Shown piece by piece: positions 12,162-64,000 of a DNA stretch of 64,000 bases (position 1 is the stretch's first letter; the number at the start of each line of letters is the position of its first letter). The DNA comes from Balneolaceae bacterium (GTDB lineage: Bacteria; Bacteroidota; Rhodothermia; Balneolales; Balneolaceae). The notes beneath the pieces were generated by a model. The model was not told where the DNA came from and did not search any database. It saw only the letters and a list, made by a program, of their open reading frames with translations. Position numbers and translations under genes: made by a program. The stretch covers positions 124,001-188,000 of the forward strand of contig JAEPQH010000006.1 of assembly GCA_017640605.1 (NCBI GenBank). Reading direction: 5' to 3'.

Positions 12162-13226
12162 TCAGTTAAGCGTTGCTTTCAATTCGAGAATTCTTGCAAC
12201 CGATCGTTCAATTCTTTCCTCGGTAATTTCACCCGCATCCAGCAGCGCTTCGACAGCGTCAATGGCATCTGATAGCTTAACAGGTTCCGGTAATAGATTA
12301 TTTCCAAAGCAGAACATGTCGAGACCGGCATCTATACCAAGTCGTAAAGAATCTTTCAAACTGTAATGGTCGGAAATCGCTCGCATTTGCATGTCGTCGG
12401 ATATAACAACTCCTTCGAAACCCAATTTTCCACGAAGCATTTTGGTTAAAACTTTATTCGACAGGGTAGAAGGATTGGAAGAATCCCAGTTAGCATTAAA
12501 AATATGCGCTGTCATTATCATGGGGCACATCCCTTTTTCAATGAGAGTTTCATAGGGAGCAAGTTCCTCTTCAAGCCAGGTTTCGGTGACATCCACAAAA
12601 CCGGCATGTGTATCGCCGAGGGCGCTTCCATGTCCCGGAAAATGTTTACAACAGGTAAGAATGTTTTTGTTTTGATGTCCCTTTATGTAAGCTTCTGCGT
12701 GTTGGGCTACTTTCTCTGCGGATCGCCCAAAAGAGCGTTCTCTTCCCGCAATAATCATACTTTTAGGTTGAATGGCCAAATCTAACACGGGAGCGAAGTT
12801 TAGGTTGATTCCTGAATCAGCGAGAACATCAGCAATCAAAGCAGATTGCTCTTCGGTGTAAGCAGGATCATCACGTTCACCTAAATGCTTATGCGATTTA
12901 GTTTCAGGAAATCCATATTCAGGTTTTAACCGTTGAATGATTCCACCTTCCTGATCGATGCCAATAAAAAGTGGGGATTCGGCAGTTTCTTGCAGTTTCT
13001 GGGTGAGCGCTTTTAACTGCTCCGGAGATTGGATGTTATGCACCGGTTTTTTGTGCACCATATCCCGATCAAATAAAATTACTCCGCCGGGATTTTCATC
13101 TGCGATATCCTTTAGAATTTCTGAATTCTCCGAAAGGTCTGATCCTCGAAATCCCATGAGGAATAATTGAGCGATTTTTCGGCGTGTACTTTGTGACCGT
13201 GCGATTTGTAAATATTTGTCATTCAT
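12162..13226 (-). CDS. nagZ: Beta-N-acetylhexosaminidase (GH3)
   Basis: This 354-residue GH3 enzyme removes GlcNAc from muropeptides or from chito-oligosaccharides. The GH3 NagZ signature is present: KHFPGHGSALGDTH (about 193-206), where the final His of GDTH acts as acid/base in this family, and VISDDM (about 272-277), where the first Asp is the nucleophile. FIGIDQEGG is also characteristic. There is no signal peptide, so it should act in the cytoplasm, unlike the lipoprotein NamZ encoded divergently 102 bases away. In Bacillus subtilis nagZ and namZ are adjacent in the MurNAc operon, so the pairing here supports peptidoglycan-glycan breakdown. Confidence 0.93.
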   Translation of the reverse strand: MNDKYLQIARSQSTRRKIAQLFLMGFRGSDLSENSEILKDIADENPGGVILFDRDMVHKKPVHNIQSPEQLKALTQKLQETAESPLFIGIDQEGGIIQRLKPEYGFPETKSHKHLGERDDPAYTEEQSALIADVLADSGINLNFAPVLDLAIQPKSMIIAGRERSFGRSAEKVAQHAEAYIKGHQNKNILTCCKHFPGHGSALGDTHAGFVDVTETWLEEELAPYETLIEKGMCPMIMTAHIFNANWDSSNPSTLSNKVLTKMLRGKLGFEGVVISDDMQMRAISDHYSLKDSLRLGIDAGLDMFCFGNNLLPEPVKLSDAIDAVEALLDAGEITEERIERSVARILELKATLN

Positions 13227-13328
13227 GGCTTTAAGTTACTGTAAAAATCTCAAATTTTTAACGCTTCTGTGAACTTTTAACATAGATTGTATACCTTCAT
13301 TGAAGGCCTAAAATTAACTCACTTTTTT

Positions 13329-14576
13329 ATGATAAGAATCGCTTCTTTATGTCTGATTTTTGCACTTTGTATCGGATGTAATTCATCAAAAGCACAGCAA
13401 GATGCTACCGTTAAAACCGGTATCGAAGTACTGGTAGAAAATAACTTTGAGCTACTACAAGGAAAGCGCGTTGGATTGATAACCAACGCCACAGGAGTAA
13501 ATGCCAATTTGGTTTCTACCATTGATCTGATCGATCAGGCAGAGGGCGTTGAACTTGCAGCTCTTTACGGACCTGAGCATGGGGTTCGAGGAGAATATGC
13601 TGCCGGCGACAAAGTTAAAACCTACGTAGATGAACGCACAGGAGTTACTGTGTTTTCATTGTATGGCGATACTCGTAAACCAAATGCGGAAATGCTGGAA
13701 GGAATTGACGTTTTAGTGTACGATATACAGGATATTGGAGTGCGTTCGTATACCTACATCAGTACAATGGGCTTGGCAATGGAAGCTGCCGCCGAACATG
13801 ATATTGACTTTGTAGTGTTAGATCGTCCGAATCCATTGGGCGGATATAAAATCGAAGGAAATATTGTTGAAGAAGGATATATAAGTTTTGTAAGTCAGTT
13901 TCCGGTTCCTTACATCTATGGATTAACTCCCGGCGAAATCGCAAAAATGATCAATGACGAAGGCTGGCTCGAAGGCGGACAAAAAGTGAAGCTGGATGTT
14001 GTTGGAATGGAAGGATGGAGCCGAAATATGACCTTTGATGAAACAGGGCTGCCTTGGGTACCAACTTCTCCGCATATTCCGCATGAATATTCGGCCTATT
14101 TTTACGTGGCAACCGGTATAATGGGTGAATTGGGAGTGTTTTCGGAAGGAGTAGGATATACTTTGCCCTTTCAGGTATTTGCCGCAGAATGGATTGATGA
14201 AGCTAAACTTGCCATCGAAATGAATGCCTTAAATTTGCCCGGTGTCATTTTCAGGCCAACCGTATTCAAACCCTTTTACGGGAAACATCAAGGCAAAGAA
14301 TTACACGGTGTACAAATTCACTTCTCTGATATAGAAGAAGCAGAATTGATGAACCTTCAGTTCTATTTTATGCAGGTACATCACAAATTATATCCTGATG
14401 TGGATTTATTTGCACAAGCAGAAAACCGATGGTCGATGTTCGATAAAGTGAATGGCACCGATCAAATCAGAAAACTTTTTGGCGAAAACTATTTGGTTTC
14501 CGATATCGAAGCCTATCTAAATAAAGATGTGCAAACCTTCCGTGAAAAATCCAAAGCCTACTATCTCTACAACTAA
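13329..14576 (+). CDS. namZ: Exo-beta-N-acetylmuramidase NamZ-like lipoprotein (DUF1343)
   Basis: The 415-residue product is a DUF1343 (PF07075) protein. Members characterised in Bacillus subtilis and Tannerella forsythia release MurNAc from the non-reducing ends of peptidoglycan glycan. Visible hallmarks are GKRVGLITNATGVN, LYGPEHGVRGEYAAGDKV (about 78-95), VLVYDIQDIGVRSYTY and LDRPNPLGG. An earlier in-frame TTG (13287) exists; I choose the ATG at 13329 because it gives a lipoprotein signal immediately, with the lipobox Cys at about residue 17 (CIGC). The enzyme should thus be membrane-anchored outside the cytoplasm. The amidase gene follows after 4 bases. Confidence 0.92.
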   Translation: MIRIASLCLIFALCIGCNSSKAQQDATVKTGIEVLVENNFELLQGKRVGLITNATGVNANLVSTIDLIDQAEGVELAALYGPEHGVRGEYAAGDKVKTYVDERTGVTVFSLYGDTRKPNAEMLEGIDVLVYDIQDIGVRSYTYISTMGLAMEAAAEHDIDFVVLDRPNPLGGYKIEGNIVEEGYISFVSQFPVPYIYGLTPGEIAKMINDEGWLEGGQKVKLDVVGMEGWSRNMTFDETGLPWVPTSPHIPHEYSAYFYVATGIMGELGVFSEGVGYTLPFQVFAAEWIDEAKLAIEMNALNLPGVIFRPTVFKPFYGKHQGKELHGVQIHFSDIEEAELMNLQFYFMQVHHKLYPDVDLFAQAENRWSMFDKVNGTDQIRKLFGENYLVSDIEAYLNKDVQTFREKSKAYYLYN

Positions 14577-14580
14577 ATCT

Positions 14581-16419
14581 ATGCGTGTATTAAATCAACT
14601 TTTTCTGGCAAGTGTTTTTTGCTTGCTTACAGCATCCTCTGCAATTGCACAAAATAATATGGTAAGAATTGCGGCTTCGGATTCAGATTCATTATATCTG
14701 AACATCGTAATTCCCGAAACTGATACCGTACAATATAGCTTTTCGAGATATCGAATCGGAGCAAATACGCATCCCGAGGCACGAGCTTTTGTTAATGGAC
14801 GAGAAGTAAAAGTGTACGAAAGTGGCGCTTTTGTTGATATGATCGCTCACACAGAAGACACTACAGGAATTCACATCAGAGTAAGCTTAAACGGAGAAGA
14901 GCTGAACTACAACGCAATGTTGGTGCGTCCTCAAAGTGTAATTCCTGAGTTCGATGGCAAAGTAATCTCTAACATTAGCATGAAACCGGACAGCGACTTA
15001 TGGCTGAAAGCCGGAGAGTTGTTAGAAGTTCAGTTCGTTGGCACACCGGGGCAAAGTGTGGTATTCAATATTGATGGATTCAAACGAAATATACCGATGC
15101 AGGAAGTTTCGGAAGAAGAAGCCGGTTATCCCGGATTGTATCGTGGATTTTATAAAGTGCTGGATAGCGATGTGGTATACAATCAATTCATCACTTTTAA
15201 GATGAAAAAAGGACTATTCGGCTATGAAAAGCAGAAAAGTGAGCATACAGTTTCGTTTAACGGTACTCCCAGAGTGGCCGAAGTTGTAGTTGATGATGCC
15301 TACTTGAATATTGGCATGGGAACCGATCGCTTAGGCGGTGCTCGTCACGGCTTTTTGGATAAAGGAGTGTTGCTCAACATCGATGGACAAAAGAAAGGAA
15401 ATTATCGCGTCCGTTTAACGGAAAGTTTAAGTGCTTGGATTCCAATGCGTTTTGTTGAATTACGAGAAGAGCGTCGAACGGCGGTATCTTCACTTACCGG
15501 TAATATCCGAATTTCAGGTCGCTCTGAAACCGATTTGATACGACTATCACTTTCCGAAAAACTGCCTTACATCACTTGGCAAGATATCAACCCAAATATG
15601 ATTTACGTGGATGTATTTGGGGCAACCTCTAACACCAATTGGAAAGTGAAGCACAAAAGTAGTTCGGGAATAAAGAAATTGAATTGGGTTCAGGTCGAAG
15701 ACGATCGTTTCCGGTTAGAAATTGAGCTGGCTCACAGCCATAATTGGGGATACTCGGTAGGATATGGCTGGGGTTCGATATTAAATATCGAAGTGAATCG
15801 TCCACCGGTAATTTCCGATCCGTTAAATCCACTTGCAGGTAGAGTTATCTCGGTGGATGCCGGTCATGGTGGCGATAGCAGAGGTGCACTTGGAGCGAGC
15901 GGCATCGAAGAAAAAGTGATCACCTTACAAATAACCGAGCGACTCACCGACTTGTTAGAAGCAGAAGGTGTAACGGTAGTTCTGCCTCGAACCGATGATT
16001 CGTATGTATACATGAGTGAGCGCCGTGAAATGACACTCGATTCGGGTGCAGATTTATTAGTGAGTATCCATGCAAACTCAATTGGATATGGGAGCAATCC
16101 GCTGGAAATAAGAGGAACCGGTTCCTTCTATAAGCATCTTGCATTCAAGCCGTTAGCAGAAATTATGTATGATAAAATGCTTGAGCTTGGCTTAGAGGAT
16201 TATGGTCTTACCGGAAGTTTTAATTTTTCATTAAATGCACCGATCGAATTTCCAAACGTACTGGTAGAAACAGGATTTGTATCCAATCCAGAGGAAGAAA
16301 TCATGCTGATGGATCCGGATTTTCAGCAACGAATAGCTGAGCAGATAGTAGAGGGTTTGAAAGAGTTTTATTTAAATCATGCTACCATCAAAGCTTTAGA
16401 AGCAATGCCGGATAAGTAG
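14581..16419 (+). CDS. Secreted N-acetylmuramoyl-L-alanine amidase (Amidase_3)
   Basis: The 612-residue product has a signal peptide (MRVLNQLFLASVFCLL...AIAQ) and about 390 residues of unassigned beta-rich sequence before the zinc amidase domain at about 420-605. Zinc-site motifs are clear: VDAGHGG (His), IEEKV (Glu), SIHANS (His) and VETGFVSNPEEE (catalytic Glu). The reaction is removal of the peptide from MurNAc. A longer frame begins 54 bases upstream inside namZ, but the ATG at 14581 directly starts the signal peptide and lies 4 bases after the namZ stop. The neighbours NamZ and NagZ would then attack the denuded glycan. The long N-terminal part may bind the wall (inference). Confidence 0.9.
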   Translation: MRVLNQLFLASVFCLLTASSAIAQNNMVRIAASDSDSLYLNIVIPETDTVQYSFSRYRIGANTHPEARAFVNGREVKVYESGAFVDMIAHTEDTTGIHIRVSLNGEELNYNAMLVRPQSVIPEFDGKVISNISMKPDSDLWLKAGELLEVQFVGTPGQSVVFNIDGFKRNIPMQEVSEEEAGYPGLYRGFYKVLDSDVVYNQFITFKMKKGLFGYEKQKSEHTVSFNGTPRVAEVVVDDAYLNIGMGTDRLGGARHGFLDKGVLLNIDGQKKGNYRVRLTESLSAWIPMRFVELREERRTAVSSLTGNIRISGRSETDLIRLSLSEKLPYITWQDINPNMIYVDVFGATSNTNWKVKHKSSSGIKKLNWVQVEDDRFRLEIELAHSHNWGYSVGYGWGSILNIEVNRPPVISDPLNPLAGRVISVDAGHGGDSRGALGASGIEEKVITLQITERLTDLLEAEGVTVVLPRTDDSYVYMSERREMTLDSGADLLVSIHANSIGYGSNPLEIRGTGSFYKHLAFKPLAEIMYDKMLELGLEDYGLTGSFNFSLNAPIEFPNVLVETGFVSNPEEEIMLMDPDFQQRIAEQIVEGLKEFYLNHATIKALEAMPDK

Positions 16420-30232: not shown

Positions 30233-31912
30233 TTATTTGATAAGTGTTAATTTTTGGATTTGATGCTCGGTTGTTCCCGCGGAAGTAAAATCCATTTTTA
30301 ACAGGTAAACACCACTAGCTGCTGATTGTGCATTCCATCGAAGTTGATGCCTACCAGCAGATTGTCTGCCTTCGAATAAGGTAGAAATTAGCTGACCGTT
30401 AATCGAATAAACATTTACGCTAACGTGACCCGCCTTTGGAATATTGAATTCAATATTTGTTGATGGATTAAATGGATTCGGATAGGATGGAAAGAGTTCA
30501 AATCCCGAAATGTGATCTTCCATTTCGTTCGATACAGTATTGTTTTCGACTCCTACAAATCGGATCGCATCGGCAACCACATAGCTATTTGTTGCCGCTC
30601 CAAAATTCGAAATAATTACTTGATCGGTATAGGTACCTGAAAATTCATATTCCCCCAACAACACCCATTTAGAGTTATCGGTACTTTGATCTGCATACAC
30701 GGTATCAATGCCCTGCTGATGATGAACAATAAATGGCGCTTTTTTACTACGATTTGAAGAAGAAACCCACCATCCGTACAACTCATAGGTGCTAGCTGCC
30801 GGAAGATCTGGTTTAAAAGTCACGGTTTTGGAGCCATCACCGCCCAAAGTTATCAAGGATGGAGTATCACCATAGTAACCGGCGTTTGCCGAAGCCGACC
30901 ATCCACTGGAAACTTCAACGCTTTCGTCGCCGGTATCTAAAATCTGTTCATAGCCAACTACCGGGAAAGTTGGAACGGAATCTGCCGGCATGATTGCAAG
31001 GAAAGTTGCAACCGGGCGCTCAAAGCGTGAACCTCCGGGGCGATTGATCAGTTTGTCACCAATAACCATTTGGCTTGATCCACCACCATCCAAATTGATT
31101 GCCTCAGTAGCCCCTAGATCGATCATAATTTGAGCTAATTCTGTAAGACTTACTCCCACGGAAACGGAGCCTTGTCGACCATCGACCACCATCAAAATAG
31201 CTTTACCATCTTCGGTATAGCCAACTGCGGTTCTTGGGTCTGCATTATCTCTTCCAACTCCTGAGCCCCAGAAAATTTCTTCATTATAACTAACTTTAAC
31301 ACTATCACCTTTTACCAAAATCGGGCCGCCGCCTACGCCCATGTAAGCGTCGCTGTATAATTCACCACTTTCTTTTACAGGAGCAGGAAGAGGACTTGAA
31401 GTGGAACCTCCGTAAGGCATTGGTTCGTCAAATCGGTATAAATTTTCGATTCCGCCCCCAAAGTGATAAATCCAATCGATGGACATGCTTTTATCTTCTT
31501 TTATGCCAAACATGCTTCGAATCACGGGATAAGACTGCGAATTTCTAGTAAGGGAAGTCACATTTTGTGCCTGTACTTCGCCAGGCTGAATTAACGTTGA
31601 GTAACTGATTCCTCCTCCAAAGTACCCGCCATTGATGGCAGCATATGCATTTTTACGAGCGGCAAACTTGGTGATGGCTTCGGTACCTCCTGCTGCCAGA
31701 TAGGGGACCAAAGCAATATCTTCGTTGTTGGTGTCTACTTCGAAATACCAGCCTTTAAACGCAGGTGAACTTCGTGTACCTTCAAAGTAGCGAACACCAT
31801 CGGGAAGTTGCACAGAATCGGTGAGCTCGGCCCACATTATGTCTTGCGCGTGTGTAGTTTGATTGATTAGTAAAAAAGCTGAAAAAACAGCCAGAAATAA
31901 CATTTTTTTCAT
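30233..31912 (-). CDS. Secreted phosphodiester glycosidase (NAGPA/DUF2233) with sorting domain
   Basis: The 559-residue product has a signal peptide (to about residue 22, THAQ). A NAGPA domain (PF09992) covers about 60-310: KNAYAAINGGYFGGG, DPRTAVGYTEDG, ILMVVDGRQG and LGATEAINLDGGGSSQMV are characteristic. The family removes GlcNAc-1-phosphate caps from phosphodiesters, as the human uncovering enzyme does. A golvesin-like beta domain (about 325-455, YELYGWWVSSSNRS) and a canonical sorting domain ([10 protein letters not shown] ... KLTLIK) follow. It is the first gene of the minus-strand operon ending at 25346. The substrate could be teichoic-acid-like or sugar-phosphate polymers; this is inference. 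Confidence 0.85.
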   Translation of the reverse strand: MKKMLFLAVFSAFLLINQTTHAQDIMWAELTDSVQLPDGVRYFEGTRSSPAFKGWYFEVDTNNEDIALVPYLAAGGTEAITKFAARKNAYAAINGGYFGGGISYSTLIQPGEVQAQNVTSLTRNSQSYPVIRSMFGIKEDKSMSIDWIYHFGGGIENLYRFDEPMPYGGSTSSPLPAPVKESGELYSDAYMGVGGGPILVKGDSVKVSYNEEIFWGSGVGRDNADPRTAVGYTEDGKAILMVVDGRQGSVSVGVSLTELAQIMIDLGATEAINLDGGGSSQMVIGDKLINRPGGSRFERPVATFLAIMPADSVPTFPVVGYEQILDTGDESVEVSSGWSASANAGYYGDTPSLITLGGDGSKTVTFKPDLPAASTYELYGWWVSSSNRSKKAPFIVHHQQGIDTVYADQSTDNSKWVLLGEYEFSGTYTDQVIISNFGAATNSYVVADAIRFVGVENNTVSNEMEDHISGFELFPSYPNPFNPSTNIEFNIPKAGHVSVNVYSINGQLISTLFEGRQSAGRHQLRWNAQSAASGVYLLKMDFTSAGTTEHQIQKLTLIK

Positions 31913-33010: not shown

Positions 33011-34186
33011 ATGAATCAATCAAGCATATCGAGTTACAAAAATAAGTTTGAAAATGAACTGTTCAACTCGGTGATTCCTTTTTGGGAAAACCACTCACCA
33101 GATTACGAAAACGGTGGATTTTATAACTGTCTGGATCGAAAAGGAAAGATTTACGACACCCGAAAACACGTTTGGTTGCAAGGCCGACAAACATGGATGT
33201 TCAGTAAGTTGTACCGGACCGTGGATCAGAACCCGAATTGGTTGAAGATGGCTAAAAATGGGGCTGATTTTTTACTCAATCAAACGCTTACAGAAAAAGA
33301 TCGAGTGTATTTTGCCGTTACCGAAACAGGAAAAGGACTTTGGATGCAACGCAAGATATTTTCCGAGTGCTTTTGGATTATGGCCCTCGCAGAGTACAGC
33401 CGAGCAAGTGGAGAAGCGAAGTATTTGCAAGAAGCACAACGTTTATTCGAAAAAGTTTGGGGATGGTCTTCCGATTTAACGAAAGTTGGCCAACCGGTAT
33501 ATGAAGGAGCGCAGCCTATGAGTCAGCTTGCAATTCCTATGATTTTACTAAACCTGATTGAGGAAATATCAGGTGGTGATTTCTCGGATTTTCAAACTGA
33601 AATCCAGGAATGTATTCGCCGGGTGAAATTGCATGTGCATAGCGATCGCAAATTAGTTTTTGAGCAGGTTTCCCCGAGTGGCGATTTCGTAAATAATATC
33701 GACGGACGATTATTAAATCCGGGTCATGCTATTGAAGCTGGTTGGTTTCTACAGCATTGGGCACGGCACATCAACGACGATTCGTTTTCGAAAATGGCTA
33801 TCGATATGGTGCGTTGGTCACATGAAACCGGATGGGATGACCAATACGGTGGACTGTTTTATTTCCTTGATTCTGAAGGGCATTCACCGGTTCAGCTCGA
33901 GTGGGATATGAAACTGTGGTGGCCACATACCGAAGCTATGTATGCGCATCTGTTAAACTATTCCATCACCAAAGATGAAAATGATTTCAAATTGTTTGAA
34001 GAAGTGGTGGATTACAGCTTTGAGCATTTTTCTGATTCTGAATTTGGGGAATGGTTCGGGTATTTAAATCGGGAAGGGAAACGTACACATGATTTCAAAG
34101 GTGGCCCGTATAAGGGTTGCTTTCACGTTCCGCGCGCACTTTATTTGTGCTGGCAATTACTCACCGAAATGGAAAAAACCAATTAA
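33011..34186 (+). CDS. AGE-family sugar epimerase/isomerase (N-acylglucosamine 2-epimerase-like)
   Basis: This 391-residue (alpha/alpha)6-barrel protein carries the AGE-family motifs HVWLQGRQTWMFSKLY (about 53-68), FSECFWIMALAEYSRASG (about 117-134), RLLNPGHAIEAGWFLQHW (about 236-253, with the catalytic His), WWPHTEAMYAHLL and KGCFHVPRALYLC (about 367-379, second catalytic His). Family reactions include GlcNAc/ManNAc interconversion, cellobiose 2-epimerisation and mannose isomerisation; the sequence alone does not choose among them. An amino-sugar role is suggested by the neighbourhood, a mannose role by the adjacent GH38 gene. It converges on the PpiC gene with only 2 bases between the stops. 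Confidence 0.85.
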   Translation: MNQSSISSYKNKFENELFNSVIPFWENHSPDYENGGFYNCLDRKGKIYDTRKHVWLQGRQTWMFSKLYRTVDQNPNWLKMAKNGADFLLNQTLTEKDRVYFAVTETGKGLWMQRKIFSECFWIMALAEYSRASGEAKYLQEAQRLFEKVWGWSSDLTKVGQPVYEGAQPMSQLAIPMILLNLIEEISGGDFSDFQTEIQECIRRVKLHVHSDRKLVFEQVSPSGDFVNNIDGRLLNPGHAIEAGWFLQHWARHINDDSFSKMAIDMVRWSHETGWDDQYGGLFYFLDSEGHSPVQLEWDMKLWWPHTEAMYAHLLNYSITKDENDFKLFEEVVDYSFEHFSDSEFGEWFGYLNREGKRTHDFKGGPYKGCFHVPRALYLCWQLLTEMEKTN

Positions 34187-59453: not shown

Positions 59454-61313
59454 TTAATCCAGCATCGGATTCTCGAATCCAATTTGAACCTGATCTGCAG
59501 TAAATGGATCGAAAATGGCATCAATTAACCATGCAAGCTGGATGCGCGTAATTTCACTCCGATCACCGGCAAAGTTCATTGCTTCTTTGTTAGCACTAAA
59601 CCAAGTTTCATTCTCTATGTCTTCCACAGAGGTGAAGGATGGAGATTGATCCGCCAAAAAGCCCAATAGCGATTGCTGTGTAAGCTCATTTCTATTGAAA
59701 TCGGGCAGCTCAAGTCGCTGTAAGATTTCGTTCAGATTTTCGCGTTGTACCACGCTATCCGGATAAATACGTGTTTCGTTAGCCCATAAATATGGGATTC
59801 CTTCTCCACGCATCACTCCTGCAAGTCCAACCCGCTGTACCGATTCAAAGGCAGGATGATCCGGCTGAACATCCATATACGGCATCAAAAACATATCAGC
59901 ATCAAGTAATTCTTGTTGCAGTGTTCTTACATCCACATTTCTCGGTTCGATTCGGTTTTGTACAGCAAGAGCAGCTGCAGCTCCTGCTGCCTGACCTAAT
60001 TGCAACACCACAGGCTGTAAACGAGTGGTACCGTTAGCTAAATTAGAAACTGAAATACTTTTATCAGCTACAATCAACCCGTCAATTTCCTGAGGGATCA
60101 AACTTCCGTAAGGAACGTTATACGATGGGATTTTCGGAAAATCGAACTGATTTGGAACCGGATTTTTCTTTCGGTGATGATCAACCGGATAATCGCCCAC
60201 GGCAATTCCTGTTTTGTACAAAGGTCGCTCAGACATGGCATACGGATCTTGTATATCATACAAAAACAAACGATCTACTCCTACCAAGCGTCGGCTTTCT
60301 CGAATGTATGGAATCAATGGATAGCCATCTTCGGATGGGAATTCGTCGGCAGCGAGTTGAAGATTTGTGTAACCGCCTTCAGTTTGCATAAAGTAAATCC
60401 ACGACTTGGTGAATTCTTTGGCATAGGCCAGTATGGAATCACGCTCGTCGTAGCTTTGCTCTAGAATTTCAGCATAGAAATCGTTGCCATTCGTTGGCCA
60501 GTTTATCATAAACTTATCATTCGGTAAACGGCCGTAATCCAGCATGTAATCGCAGTCGATTAGATCCTCAATATTTTCTGAACAAACTTGTTTACACATA
60601 CAATCAAACTCAGCAGGATCATACGAAGCCGGTTTTTCAATGATCGGTCCTTCCGTGCCAATATCTTCCAGAATGGCTACATAAGTTAAATCCTGAACAT
60701 AGGGCAGAGGTTCGCGCGGTGCGGCTTCTTCTTTGGTTTCATCATACGTTTCCATATTGATGCTATAGTCAGCTCCGGCCAGTGCGAGTAAATCACCGTA
60801 TTCGGTGCCATCAATAAATACATCAGCAGAAACTGAAAGTGCCCCCCCATTTCGATCGGTAAAAGTAGCGCCTACCACTTTATTGTTTTGCACATCTACT
60901 GATTCGATATACCACCCATACTCAACGGTGATGTTTTCTTCAGCAGCCACCATTTTTTGGAAAACCTCATTCCCAAATGAAGGTTCAAACTGCGTTCGAG
61001 AAACCCATCCGGTAAATACTGCTTCCGGTCCGCCATAATGGTCGTACAAATGCTCGCGAAATTCGCCCCAAATGCCTGAAGGTAAATTATGATTTCCGTC
61101 GATGGCGCTTACTCCGGCAGAAGTAAGCATCCCACCTAACCATTCGGTAGGTTCGAAAATAGTAACTTGTTGGCCCATTCTGGCTGCTTGCAAGGCAGCT
61201 GTTACGCCACTGGCACCTCCGCCAACAACGGCAATTTCAGTTTGGATTGCAGGTTGATTGCTGCAATTCACAAAAAACAATAATGCAACTAATGGTAAGA
61301 GATACGTTTTCAT
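59454..61313 (-). CDS. FAD-dependent oxidoreductase lipoprotein (FAD_oxidored family) with Cys cluster
   Basis: The 619-residue product has a lipobox with Cys17 (FVNCSN), so it is anchored outside the cytoplasm. An FAD-binding Rossmann motif VVGGGASGVTAAL (29-41) follows at once, with GTEYGDLLALAGA and SNLANGTTRLQPVVLQLGQAAGAAAALA as further PF12831 family signatures. Four Cys lie at 238, 240, 244 and 254 (CMCKQVC then C). PF12831 members are often near polysaccharide genes in Bacteroidota (xanthan-lyase-linked), suggesting sugar oxidation, but no substrate is known. It is transcribed away from the NagB fusion gene, from which a terminator separates it. Confidence 0.85.
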   Translation of the reverse strand: MKTYLLPLVALLFFVNCSNQPAIQTEIAVVGGGASGVTAALQAARMGQQVTIFEPTEWLGGMLTSAGVSAIDGNHNLPSGIWGEFREHLYDHYGGPEAVFTGWVSRTQFEPSFGNEVFQKMVAAEENITVEYGWYIESVDVQNNKVVGATFTDRNGGALSVSADVFIDGTEYGDLLALAGADYSINMETYDETKEEAAPREPLPYVQDLTYVAILEDIGTEGPIIEKPASYDPAEFDCMCKQVCSENIEDLIDCDYMLDYGRLPNDKFMINWPTNGNDFYAEILEQSYDERDSILAYAKEFTKSWIYFMQTEGGYTNLQLAADEFPSEDGYPLIPYIRESRRLVGVDRLFLYDIQDPYAMSERPLYKTGIAVGDYPVDHHRKKNPVPNQFDFPKIPSYNVPYGSLIPQEIDGLIVADKSISVSNLANGTTRLQPVVLQLGQAAGAAAALAVQNRIEPRNVDVRTLQQELLDADMFLMPYMDVQPDHPAFESVQRVGLAGVMRGEGIPYLWANETRIYPDSVVQRENLNEILQRLELPDFNRNELTQQSLLGFLADQSPSFTSVEDIENETWFSANKEAMNFAGDRSEITRIQLAWLIDAIFDPFTADQVQIGFENPMLD

Positions 61314-61402: not shown

Positions 61403-63331
61403 TTAATCTAGTTCTTTCCACCGTACGAATGCTTCCATAGCTTCGTACTCAGCAAGACCTAAATCATCGTAAATTCGAGCCGTATTTCTGGTTCTGTCGT
61501 CGGCACGTTGCCAGAATTCGCGCTTATCGGTGCCCGGGAACAACGGACGATCTTTCTGCGATTGATGCTTGAAGATAGCTCTTCGCTTTCGGTCGGTTTC
61601 TTCGGGGCTAAGAGGTACCGCCATTTCGATATCCTCGATATCCCATTCTTGCCATGCTCCACGGTACAACCACGTCCAGCAATCTTTCATCCATTCTTCG
61701 TCTTTGAGTTCGCGAAGTGCAGCAAATATTGCATCTAAACAAACACGGTGCGTTCCATGCGGATCAGACAAATCACCGGCAGCATAAATTTGATGCGGTT
61801 TGATTTCCTGAATTAGATTTTTTGTGATTTCGATGTCCTCAGGACCAATAGGATTTTTACGTACCTTCCCGGTTTCATAGAACGGGAGATCCTGGAAGTG
61901 CATGTTCTCATCAGGGATGCCCACATATCGACAAGCAGCTTTTGCTTCGCCTCGGCGGATTAATCCTTTGATGGTTTTAACTGCATCGGAATCAACTTCA
62001 CCCGGTTTTTTGTCTTTAATTGAGGCTCGTACTTCATCAAATAACTTGCTGGTTTCTACATTTTCGAACCCAAATTGATCGTGATAATCTGTTACGAAAT
62101 CAGCAAATCGAATAGCTTCATCATCAAAAACCGCGATATTCCCAGATGTTTGATAGGCTACATGCACTTCGTGGCCTTGATCAACCAAGCGAATAAAAGT
62201 ACCACCCATTGAAATCACATCGTCATCGGGGTGCGGACTGAATATTAAAACGCGCTTTTTAGCCGGTTCTTTACGTTCCGGTCGATATGTATCATCCGCA
62301 TTCGGCTTACCACCCGGCCAGCCGGTAATGGTATGTTGAATTTCGTTAAAGATGCGAATGTTAACGTTGTAGGCTCGACCGATATCAGTAAGTACATCGT
62401 TCATGCCATTCTCGCTATAATCCTCATCGGTAAGCTTGAGAATTGGTTTTTGTAGATGCTTACTTAACCAAACCACTGCCTTTTTAAGCATCTGATCGGT
62501 CCACTCGATAGGACCAACTAACCACGGAGTTAGAGATCGAGTCAATTTTGCAGAAGAAGCATCATCCAGTAAGAACTCAACGTTTGCATGATCTTGCAAG
62601 TAGGTTGCCGGAATTTGAGGAGTGATATCCCCTTCAATGGTTTGTTGAACAATACCGGCTTTACCTTCACCCCATGCCATGATGAAAATTCTGTCGGCAT
62701 TAAGAATGGTTCCAACACCCATCGTAATTGCGCGACGTGGAACGTTTTCAACACCAAAGAATCCACTTGCAGCATCAAGAATGGTTAGACTATCGAGGGC
62801 AATAAGTCGGGTTTTGGAAGTTTCTGCTGACCCTGGTTCATTAAATCCAACGTGACCGGTTCGTCCAATTCCCAGAACTTGGATATCCAAACCGCCAACA
62901 GCTTCAATTTTTTCTTCGTACTGCCGACAAAATTCATACACATCATTACGATCTAAGGTGCCATCAGGAATGTGGATGTTTTCTCTTTGAATATCGATAT
63001 GATCGAACAGGTACTCGTTCATGAAATGCACATAACTGTGTATGGAGTCAGGTTCCATCGGGTAGTACTCATCTAAGTTGAAGGTTACCACATTTTTGAA
63101 ACTCAAGCCCTCTTCTTTATGCATGCGCACAAGTTCGTCGTACACTTGAGTTGGGGTAGAACCGGTTGCTAACCCTAACACTGTTTGCTCACCTTTTTTA
63201 TCTTTCTCTTTGATTAAATCTGCAATTTCTTTGGCAGCATATATCGAAGCAATTTTTGCGGATTCAAATACTTTGGTGGGGATTTTTTCAAATTTTTCAA
63301 AATCAGGGCGAATCAACGGCGAAGAAGTCAT
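61403..63331 (-). CDS. Fusion of glucosamine-6-phosphate deaminase (NagB-like) and PIG-L/LmbE deacetylase
   Basis: From ATG 63331 the product has 642 residues. Residues ~20-270 are NagB-like: LGLATGSTP, FNLDEYYPM (Asp87, equivalent of E. coli Asp72), GIGRTGHVGFNEPG (154-167). His160 and Glu165 match E. coli His143 and Glu148, but the Asp141 position is Thr158. Residues ~360-600 are a PIG-L domain with zinc motifs SPHPDDD (365-371) and DPHGTH (about 522). PIG-L enzymes deacetylate GlcNAc groups. Such fusions are known in Bacteroidota. A longer frame from 63385 exists; a -7-like element at 63393 makes the 63331 start likelier. Role: amino-sugar-6-phosphate catabolism. Confidence 0.85.
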   Translation of the reverse strand: MTSSPLIRPDFEKFEKIPTKVFESAKIASIYAAKEIADLIKEKDKKGEQTVLGLATGSTPTQVYDELVRMHKEEGLSFKNVVTFNLDEYYPMEPDSIHSYVHFMNEYLFDHIDIQRENIHIPDGTLDRNDVYEFCRQYEEKIEAVGGLDIQVLGIGRTGHVGFNEPGSAETSKTRLIALDSLTILDAASGFFGVENVPRRAITMGVGTILNADRIFIMAWGEGKAGIVQQTIEGDITPQIPATYLQDHANVEFLLDDASSAKLTRSLTPWLVGPIEWTDQMLKKAVVWLSKHLQKPILKLTDEDYSENGMNDVLTDIGRAYNVNIRIFNEIQHTITGWPGGKPNADDTYRPERKEPAKKRVLIFSPHPDDDVISMGGTFIRLVDQGHEVHVAYQTSGNIAVFDDEAIRFADFVTDYHDQFGFENVETSKLFDEVRASIKDKKPGEVDSDAVKTIKGLIRRGEAKAACRYVGIPDENMHFQDLPFYETGKVRKNPIGPEDIEITKNLIQEIKPHQIYAAGDLSDPHGTHRVCLDAIFAALRELKDEEWMKDCWTWLYRGAWQEWDIEDIEMAVPLSPEETDRKRRAIFKHQSQKDRPLFPGTDKREFWQRADDRTRNTARIYDDLGLAEYEAMEAFVRWKELD

Positions 63332-63581: not shown

Positions 63582-64000
63582 ATGAGTATTTTAATAGCCG
63601 ACGGTGGCGCTACATCAACAAGCTGGGCTGTAGTTAAAGGGAATGATCACCAAATTGTGCGAACCTCGGGGCTTAATCCAACCTTAAAAGTGGACGCAGA
63701 AATTGAGTCGGTTATCTTTGATGAGCTCTCATTGTTAATTAATTCATCGCTAGTTTCAGAAGTGTATTTTTATGGGGCAGGATGTGATGAGTTCAAAAAT
63801 TCTAATCGTATTAAGCGCATTCTTTCAGAAGCATTCCGAAAAGCAGAAATAACTGTTAAACCAGATATCGAAGGTGCAGGAATTGCATTATTTGCCAATC
63901 AGACGGGTATCGTTGTCATATCCGGAACAGGATCAAGTGCCGGTTTTATGCACGAAGGCAGTTTGGTTGATATCATGCCATCAAAATCTTATCCCGCCGG
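63582..64000 (+). CDS. BadF-family kinase, second paralogue (partial, 3' end outside the window)
   Basis: An open frame from ATG 63582 runs off the window, giving 139 residues. Its start ADGGATSTSW parallels the first kinase (ADSGSTKTEW), and EVYFYGAGCDEF and VISGTGSSAGF match its second phosphate loop and GAGC motif. Two conserved positions of the first loop differ (Lys to Ser, Glu to Ser). It is divergent from the NagB fusion with about 250 bases between, so it probably phosphorylates an amino sugar feeding that enzyme. Substrate specificity may differ from the 11308 kinase; the C-terminal half cannot be seen. Confidence 0.8.
   Translation, partial: MSILIADGGATSTSWAVVKGNDHQIVRTSGLNPTLKVDAEIESVIFDELSLLINSSLVSEVYFYGAGCDEFKNSNRIKRILSEAFRKAEITVKPDIEGAGIALFANQTGIVVISGTGSSAGFMHEGSLVDIMPSKSYPA

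Follow-up and report, generated by a model that had tools for sequence, protein, structure and literature searches.

A NagB–PIG-L fusion protein of a Balneolaceae bacterium as a probable deacetylase and deaminase of amino-sugar phosphates standing in for NagA

For Bacteroidota, N-acetylglucosamine (GlcNAc) and N-acetylmuramic acid (MurNAc) are important as sources of both carbon and nitrogen. The product of MurQ, GlcNAc-6-phosphate (GlcNAc-6-P), is the substrate of NagA, an amidohydrolase that removes the acetate, and the resulting glucosamine-6-phosphate (GlcN-6-P) is the substrate of the deaminase NagB. In the NagB of E. coli, which is hexameric and allosteric, Asp141 is annotated as a catalytic, ring-opening residue and Arg172 is a phosphate contact. 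The available part of PMC4281351 lists seven residues of E. coli NagB that contact the allosteric activator, Asp141 being one of them, and names four of the seven as conserved in the active enzyme of Giardia; by the numbering used there, in our reading, none of the four is Asp141. The same part of that source describes the NagB enzymes of B. subtilis and S. mutans as monomeric and with no known physiological activator.

Proteins in which a NagB domain is fused to a PIG-L deacetylase domain form an already known family, NF002557 (PRK02122), named 'glucosamine-6-phosphate deaminase-like protein' by NCBI, a name that is silent on the function of the PIG-L half. BT_0258 of B. theta is of the same kind and has its own name in UniProt. 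No test of the role of this family was found in the searchable literature, and no paper was recognised as characterising the fusion in the literature searched, which excludes most subscription papers. The available parts of PMC10017367, PMC11992087, and PMC5790795 make no mention of it, while a ChIP-seq table in the accessible portion of PMC3764172 includes PGN_0606 of P. gingivalis under the name 'glucosamine-6-phosphate deaminase-like protein'.

The window analysed here, meaning the whole stretch of 64,000 nucleotides, carries such a gene near its end:

61403..63331, minus strand: NagB–PIG-L fusion gene, ATG at 63331 and stop at 61403, 642 amino acids plus stop
62540..63283, minus strand: NagB half (residues 17-264), over the cut-offs of PF01182 and TIGR00502, with its model compared with 2bkv
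62831..62872, minus strand: motif GIGRTGHVGFNEPG (residues 154-167), holding Thr158 (codon 62858-62860), His160, and Glu165
62267..62536, minus strand: linker (residues 266-355), strongly kept, with TITGWPGGKPN
61406..62263, minus strand: PIG-L deacetylase half (residues 357-642), over the cut-off of PF02585, with its model compared with BshB
62219..62233, minus strand: HPDDD metal and base motif (residues 367-371), from the translation and relatives
61748..61759, minus strand: HGTH metal motif (residues 525-528), from the translation and relatives

NF002557 matches residues 12-640 of the protein and scores 1082 bits, where 384 is the cut-off, which means that its domain order and architecture are those of a named subfamily and not of a one-off fusion, and that it is a full-length, apparently uncharacterised, member of this family. 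Both domains exceed their Pfam cut-offs, with Glucosamine_iso at residues 31-248 and PIG-L at 362-538 (64.8 bits for PF02585 on the PIG-L half, gathering cut-off 28.2), and TIGR00502 (nagB) scores 256 bits, above its cut-off of 236.9. An AlphaFold2 model of the fusion, built on an alignment of 58 sequences including that of the window, has a pLDDT of 88.5 and a pTM of 0.83.

Fusions of the NF002557 type are found over cut-off in 120 of the 296 genomes of a Bacteroidota phylum set. Named loci were picked by the patterns FSPHPDDD or Q[HR]TITGWP, with the best 80 of 586 relatives kept, and they therefore lean towards intact, close relatives; nearly all of these 80 are Bacteroidota by title (the exceptions being one Ignavibacteria MAG and one 'uncultured bacterium'), and the closest, from a Balneola MAG, has 81% identity. 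A second set of 151 copies from 115 genomes (150 fetched plus that of the window) was found by profile and so leans less to intact relatives; it leaves out six of the 120 phylum-set genomes (G164, G203, G242, G254, G266, and G274), where the fusion fell below listing.

Alignment with NagB of E. coli K-12 (MG1655) sets Asp72, Asp141, His143, Glu148, and Lys208 against Asp87, Thr158, His160, Glu165, and Lys224 of the fusion, respectively. The catalytic Asp72, His143, and Glu148 of NagB thus have their counterparts and only the Asp of the E. coli type at place 141 is missing, just as the initial annotation had read from the letters. The threonine is likewise confirmed against characterised enzymes, of which that of E. 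coli has Asp and that of B. subtilis has Asn. The conclusion that had been drawn from it, namely that the loss of Asp141 implies an altered reaction, does not hold, given that the NagB of B. subtilis has Asn at this place and that Thr, Asn, or Ser is kept in fusions with an otherwise intact site; Thr158 as a mark of a dead or altered active site was rejected on these grounds. The B. subtilis enzyme (2bkv, deposited in the PDB as 'Structure and kinetics of a monomeric glucosamine-6-phosphate deaminase') is the closest solved enzyme, reads GIGRNGHIGFNEPG in this region, and shares 40-41% identity and the Asp/His/Glu set with the fusion. It differs in being a single-domain protein, in having Asn and not Thr at place 141, and in keeping the equivalent of Arg172. 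Residues 17-264 of the model superimpose on 2bkv with a Z of 38.5 and an rmsd of 1.1 Å over 242 residues. Given that B. subtilis NagB also lacks Asp141, this residue does not define the NagB family, and Thr158 alone is evidence for neither a deaminase nor a non-deaminating enzyme.

The distribution of residues at this place among the relatives indicates that the threonine is no sequencing accident, since the 111 aligned fusions have Thr in 77, Asn in 32, and Ser and Val in one each. Among the 151 copies, the counterparts of Asp72, His143, and Glu148 are kept together in 146, and all 146 have Thr (91), Asn (32), or Ser (23) at place 141, with Asp never found. In a further set of 144 copies, which partly overlaps the previous one, the 124 intact copies have Thr in 88, Asn in 33, and Ser in three, whereas the 20 broken ones have drifted to Ala (5), Val (4), Thr, Glu, Leu, Gly, and Ser (2 each), and Gln (1). 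This constraint in intact copies and drift in broken ones is the pattern of a residue that belongs to an active site under maintenance, and the threonine follows it. Classical single-domain NagBs found by motif near fusions of the order set, which comprises 159 genomes of the order around G230 (inferred to be probably Bacteroidales), 36 of them with a fusion, have Asp at place 141 in eight of eight cases.

The fusions share Asp72, His143, Glu148, and Lys208 with E. coli NagB and differ from it, besides the threonine, in the allosteric residues Lys160 and Tyr254, which are replaced in all of the 124 intact fusions, that of the window included (Ile, Val, or Met at place 160; Val, Ile, or Met at place 254). 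This fits an unregulated enzyme of the B. subtilis kind, and activation by GlcNAc-6-P would not be expected, as Lys160 and Tyr254 are not kept. At the place of Arg172, where the alignment is uncertain by one residue, the 124 intact fusions have Ser in 73 and Arg in 11; in the window this place falls on residues 189-190 (62762-62767), and in the fusions it is mostly not Arg.

The HPDDD and HGTH motifs of the PIG-L half, reported as intact, are indeed present in the translation at residues 367-371 and 525-528. His367, Asp369, Asp370, and His528 are found in 143 of 143 aligned copies, a set that is biased to intact motifs. The model has the fold of PIG-L deacetylases, with Z values of 23.2 for residues 358-642 against BshB and 23.0 for residues 338-642 against diacetylchitobiose deacetylase. 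The HPDD and HxxH motifs are those of BshB, diacetylchitobiose deacetylase, and MshB (fold Z 18.6 to 23.2), but identity to these enzymes is only 17-23%, and the fusion half, which is about 50 residues longer than BshB, has conserved C-terminal motifs of its own. A common fold modelled in this way reveals no substrate. Unlike that of the known PIG-L deacetylases, the substrate of this half is likely a sugar phosphate; the reaction proposed for it is that of NagA, which belongs to an unrelated family.

In the initial annotation it was proposed that the fusion could act on GlcNAc-6-P in place of NagA, which was said to be absent. The window alone could not show this absence, and the claim was upheld by a search of the whole genome (3.74 Mb in 34 contigs, 99.84% complete), in which no NagA was found at E 1e-20 and no match to TIGR00221 over cut-off, in a search that detected the NagA of E. 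coli and of six or seven other controls at 1e-20. Weak matches (E 1.7e-7 and 6.5e-7) come from one 467-aa frame on contig 11; a hidden NagA there was rejected, as the ORFs have signal-peptide-like starts and look by eye like other amidohydrolases. The only protein with PF01182, the NagB superfamily, found in this genome is the fusion. PIG-L domains occur in four places, one being the fusion and one BshB1 (265 bits, cut-off 182.5), and MurQ is present (TIGR00274, 382 bits, cut-off 302). An alternative deaminase of the SIS type was considered and rejected, given that the SIS proteins found are MurQ and a GlmS-like protein (the latter by eye) and nothing else.

The genes of the window that bear on the supply of amino sugars are the following:

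63582..64000, plus strand: GlcNAc/MurNAc-type kinase gene, 288 aa, divergent from the fusion, extending past the window end and complete in L004:2583-3449
12162..13226, minus strand: GH3 protein, beta-N-acetylhexosaminidase-like, PF00933 over cut-off, NF003740 short of its cut-off of 207 with 181 bits
13287..14576, plus strand: NamZ exo-N-acetylmuramidase homologue, PF07075 and PF20732 over cut-off
14527..16419, plus strand: N-acetylmuramoyl-L-alanine amidase domain protein, PF01520 over cut-off

The kinase has no Pfam match at E 0.001, and against PDB chains phmmer finds an N-acetylglucosamine kinase (8ow7, E 5e-23) and a putative MurNAc kinase (8ow9, E 3e-18). MurK of Tannerella is a MurNAc 6-kinase according to the available part of PMC5790795. 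A recognisable relative of the window kinase occurs in only three of 96 compared loci (76 and 20), so that a kinase neighbour is no general rule. The GH3, NamZ, and amidase genes lie inside the window at about 47-50 kb from the fusion and, being side by side (12162-16419), likely form a cluster for peptidoglycan scavenging. MurQ, the kinase next door, and NamZ make it very likely that this cell produces GlcNAc-6-P, and for the conversion of GlcNAc-6-P to GlcN-6-P no candidate besides the fusion was found in the genome. The window also holds a NAGPA phosphodiester glycosidase with a type IX sorting tail (30233-31912) and a gene of the GlcNAc 2-epimerase family (33011-34186), and an FAD-dependent oxidoreductase (PF12831) with a lipoprotein-like start (59454-61313) follows the fusion closely downstream in the same orientation.

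The fusion was recognised in 76 of the 80 named loci (best 80 of 586), and a MurQ-like gene lies within 10 kb of it in eight of these 76. NagA was not found in any of the eight genomes, searched at E 1e-10 (L063, L066, L067) or 1e-20 (L044, L045, L057, L062, L068), four of which are MAGs and four isolates (Robiginitalea SC105, Muriicola Z0-33, Flagellimonas aequoris, and Polaribacter marinus), with genome completeness given for none of them; among all genomes tested in these searches, NagA is over cut-off in 7 of 20 and 6 of 18. MurQ, the kinase, and the fusion are also found together in G356 of the order set, where there is no NagA at 1e-20. Directly upstream of the fusion, on the opposite strand, a gene that looks by eye like a DeoR-type regulator is seen in seven of the MurQ-linked loci (L044, L045, L057, L062, L063, L067, and L068), and this may perhaps be the regulator of the pathway.

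In the 296 genomes of the phylum set, fusion and NagA over cut-off occur together in 23, the fusion alone in 97, NagA alone in 19, and neither in 157, so that NagA over cut-off is missing from 97 of 120 fusion genomes; its presence in 23 of 120 fusion genomes versus 19 of 176 others gives an odds ratio of 1.96 (p 0.06, relatedness not corrected). With NagA taken at E 1e-20 the counts are 29, 91, 21, and 155, with an odds ratio of 2.35 (p 0.007, again uncorrected for relatedness). A simple avoidance between the two is thus not seen across this set. The two travel together in families f18 (7/7) and f21 (7/9), while in the family of the window organism NagA is over cut-off in one of 28 fusion genomes and reaches 1e-20 in four of them. 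NagA directly adjoins the fusion in G068 (544008-545924 and 546008-547108), lies about 5 kb from it in G245, and is beside or near it in L069 and G419. Classical NagB (at least 318 bits) is present in 33 phylum-set genomes, eight of which also carry the fusion; 16 of the 33 have NagA over cut-off, and the eight fusion carriers are not among these 16 (relatedness uncorrected here too). Six phylum-set genomes outside the order around G230 (G003, G008, G050, G058, G131, and G151) keep a fusion with both halves intact beside a classical NagB, none with NagA. In the order set, 9 of the 13 genomes with a classical NagB and no fusion also have no NagA, which means that NagA is commonly lacking in that order for other reasons and that its lack alone proves little.

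Taking the NagB half as broken when Asp72, His143, or Glu148 is lost, it is broken in 20 of the 36 order-set fusions, and 19 of these 20 genomes have a classical NagB, versus three of the 16 (G442, G325, and G322) with an intact NagB half; a weaker single-domain NagB relative of 166 bits in G433, where the fusion is intact, was not counted as classical. The tally joins 34 fusions from one table (19 broken, 15 intact) with G343 (broken) and G322 (intact), read separately, and for the 34 the association between a broken half and a classical NagB has a Fisher p of 1.4e-6, to be read with the strong and uncorrected relatedness in mind, as a tree of the linker and PIG-L region (291 sequences) groups 18 of the 20 genomes with a broken half into a single clade. 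This tree shows four losses of the NagB half, three of them touching the order set. Broken fusion and classical NagB gene are neighbours in several order-set genomes. The PIG-L catalytic residues are intact in all 20 broken fusions. Mean identity is 0.47 for broken NagB halves and 0.59 for intact ones, and in the broken fusions it remains 0.67 for the PIG-L half and 0.77 for the linker. Loss of the NagB half where a classical NagB is present suggests that this half normally deaminates and is dispensable given another NagB, and retention of the PIG-L half suggests that it is needed regardless of another NagB. The only broken genome without classical NagB is G405, of 1.2 Mb, from which the PIG-L half alone seems worth keeping.

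NagA reaches E 1e-20 in five of the 36 order-set fusion genomes (G322, G334, G373 with a 200-position hit, G419, and G456), and in G334, G419, and G456 it coexists with a fusion whose NagB half is broken. G322 is the single reverse case: its fusion (L161, 6970-8886) has an intact NagB half and has lost the PIG-L motifs (RPADD, HGTR), in a genome with both NagA and classical NagB. In the family of the window organism, second copies with Asp369 changed to Ala are found in G108 (L275), G199 (L277), G167 (L278), and G119 (L280), those of G119 and G167 also with His528 changed to Tyr; each of these genomes holds another copy with intact motifs (L025 in G108, L184 in G119, L017 in G199, and L024 in G167), and as for NagA, G167 has it over cut-off, G199 gives a weak hit, and in G108 and G119 it was not found.

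Taken together, these sequence and genome data make it probable that the fusion is a bifunctional amino-sugar-phosphate enzyme that deacetylates GlcNAc-6-P and then deaminates GlcN-6-P, standing in for NagA. The C-terminal PIG-L half, metal-dependent through its HPDDD/HxxH motifs, would take the acetate off GlcNAc-6-P, as NagA does elsewhere, and the N-terminal NagB half would then use the usual mechanism of NagB to open, isomerise, and deaminate GlcN-6-P, yielding fructose-6-phosphate and ammonia, the threonine standing where E. coli has Asp and B. subtilis Asn; we infer GlcNAc-6-P as the substrate of the PIG-L half, as well as which step comes first and any channelling from one site to the other. 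The reading builds on the presence of both catalytic sets, on the single NagB and the MurQ and kinase of a genome in which no NagA was found, and on the fact that each half has been lost in some relatives where a stand-alone enzyme exists for its reaction. The initial annotation had offered this as the first of two options, and comparative genomics (the MurQ linkage, the own genome, and the half losses) supports it. Counted against it are the NagA of 23 of the 120 fusion genomes, the NagA genes that adjoin or lie near a fusion (G068, G245, L069, G419), the six intact fusions beside a classical NagB, the nine of 13 fusion-less genomes without NagA, the place of Arg172 that is mostly not Arg, the broken-NagB fusions that coexist with NagA (G334, G419, G456), and the second copies of G108 and G119, where no NagA was found.

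Some of these data would suit a fusion whose NagB half is an ordinary GlcN-6-P deaminase while the PIG-L half deacetylates something else, such as free GlcNAc ahead of its phosphorylation, a chitobiose, or another N-acetyl sugar, so that the halves do not act consecutively. The nearest solved PIG-L folds, diacetylchitobiose deacetylase and BshB, act on unphosphorylated sugars, judging by their names, NagA stands beside the fusion in some genomes (G068, L069), and MFS, SusC, GH3-like, and NagX-like neighbours suit a general use of GlcNAc; this is nonetheless unlikely, given that MurQ delivers GlcNAc-6-P inside the cell in the own genome, that NagA was found neither there nor in the eight MurQ-linked genomes, and that the PIG-L motifs were lost in a genome with NagA (G322). 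That the NagB half without Asp141 would only isomerise or bind a sugar phosphate, the second option of the annotation, draws on the annotation of Asp141 as catalytic in E. coli, on the change at the Arg172 place, and on the NCBI name 'deaminase-like'. It is disfavoured and appears very improbable in view of the Asn of B. subtilis NagB, of the Thr, Asn, or Ser kept with Asp72, His143, and Glu148 in every intact copy, of the order set, where nearly all genomes whose fusion lost catalytic residues of the NagB half carry a classical NagB, and of the fusion being the sole NagB-type protein found in its genome. The available part of PMC4281351 describes the NagB of Giardia as mainly anabolic, and the reaction can accordingly run both ways, but a fusion that works in the synthetic direction or regulates amino-sugar levels, and not in catabolism, is hardly credible given a GlmS-like protein in the own genome, the neighbouring kinase of the window, and, in some relatives, neighbours that include MurQ, transporters, and glycosidases.

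Should the PIG-L half prove to be the GlcNAc-6-P deacetylase that so many of these genomes lack, it would close a gap in the pathways for the sugars of chitin, mucin, and peptidoglycan, and the 'deaminase-like' annotation of many genomes would become that of a bifunctional enzyme; the view of Asp141 as the mark of a working NagB stands corrected. A wider proposal, which we put forward tentatively and consider possible but doubtful, is that the PIG-L half founds a second GlcNAc-6-P deacetylase family, unrelated to NagA and replacing it in many Bacteroidota, and that in some lineages the NagB half may have become, about four times, a full-length pseudo-deaminase acting as sensor or scaffold for the deacetylase, often beside a separate NagB gene. 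In a separate clade of fusions Asp72 is replaced by Asn or Ala (L296 of G211 and L297 of G163); G211 also has a single-domain NagB with one stop in its frame.
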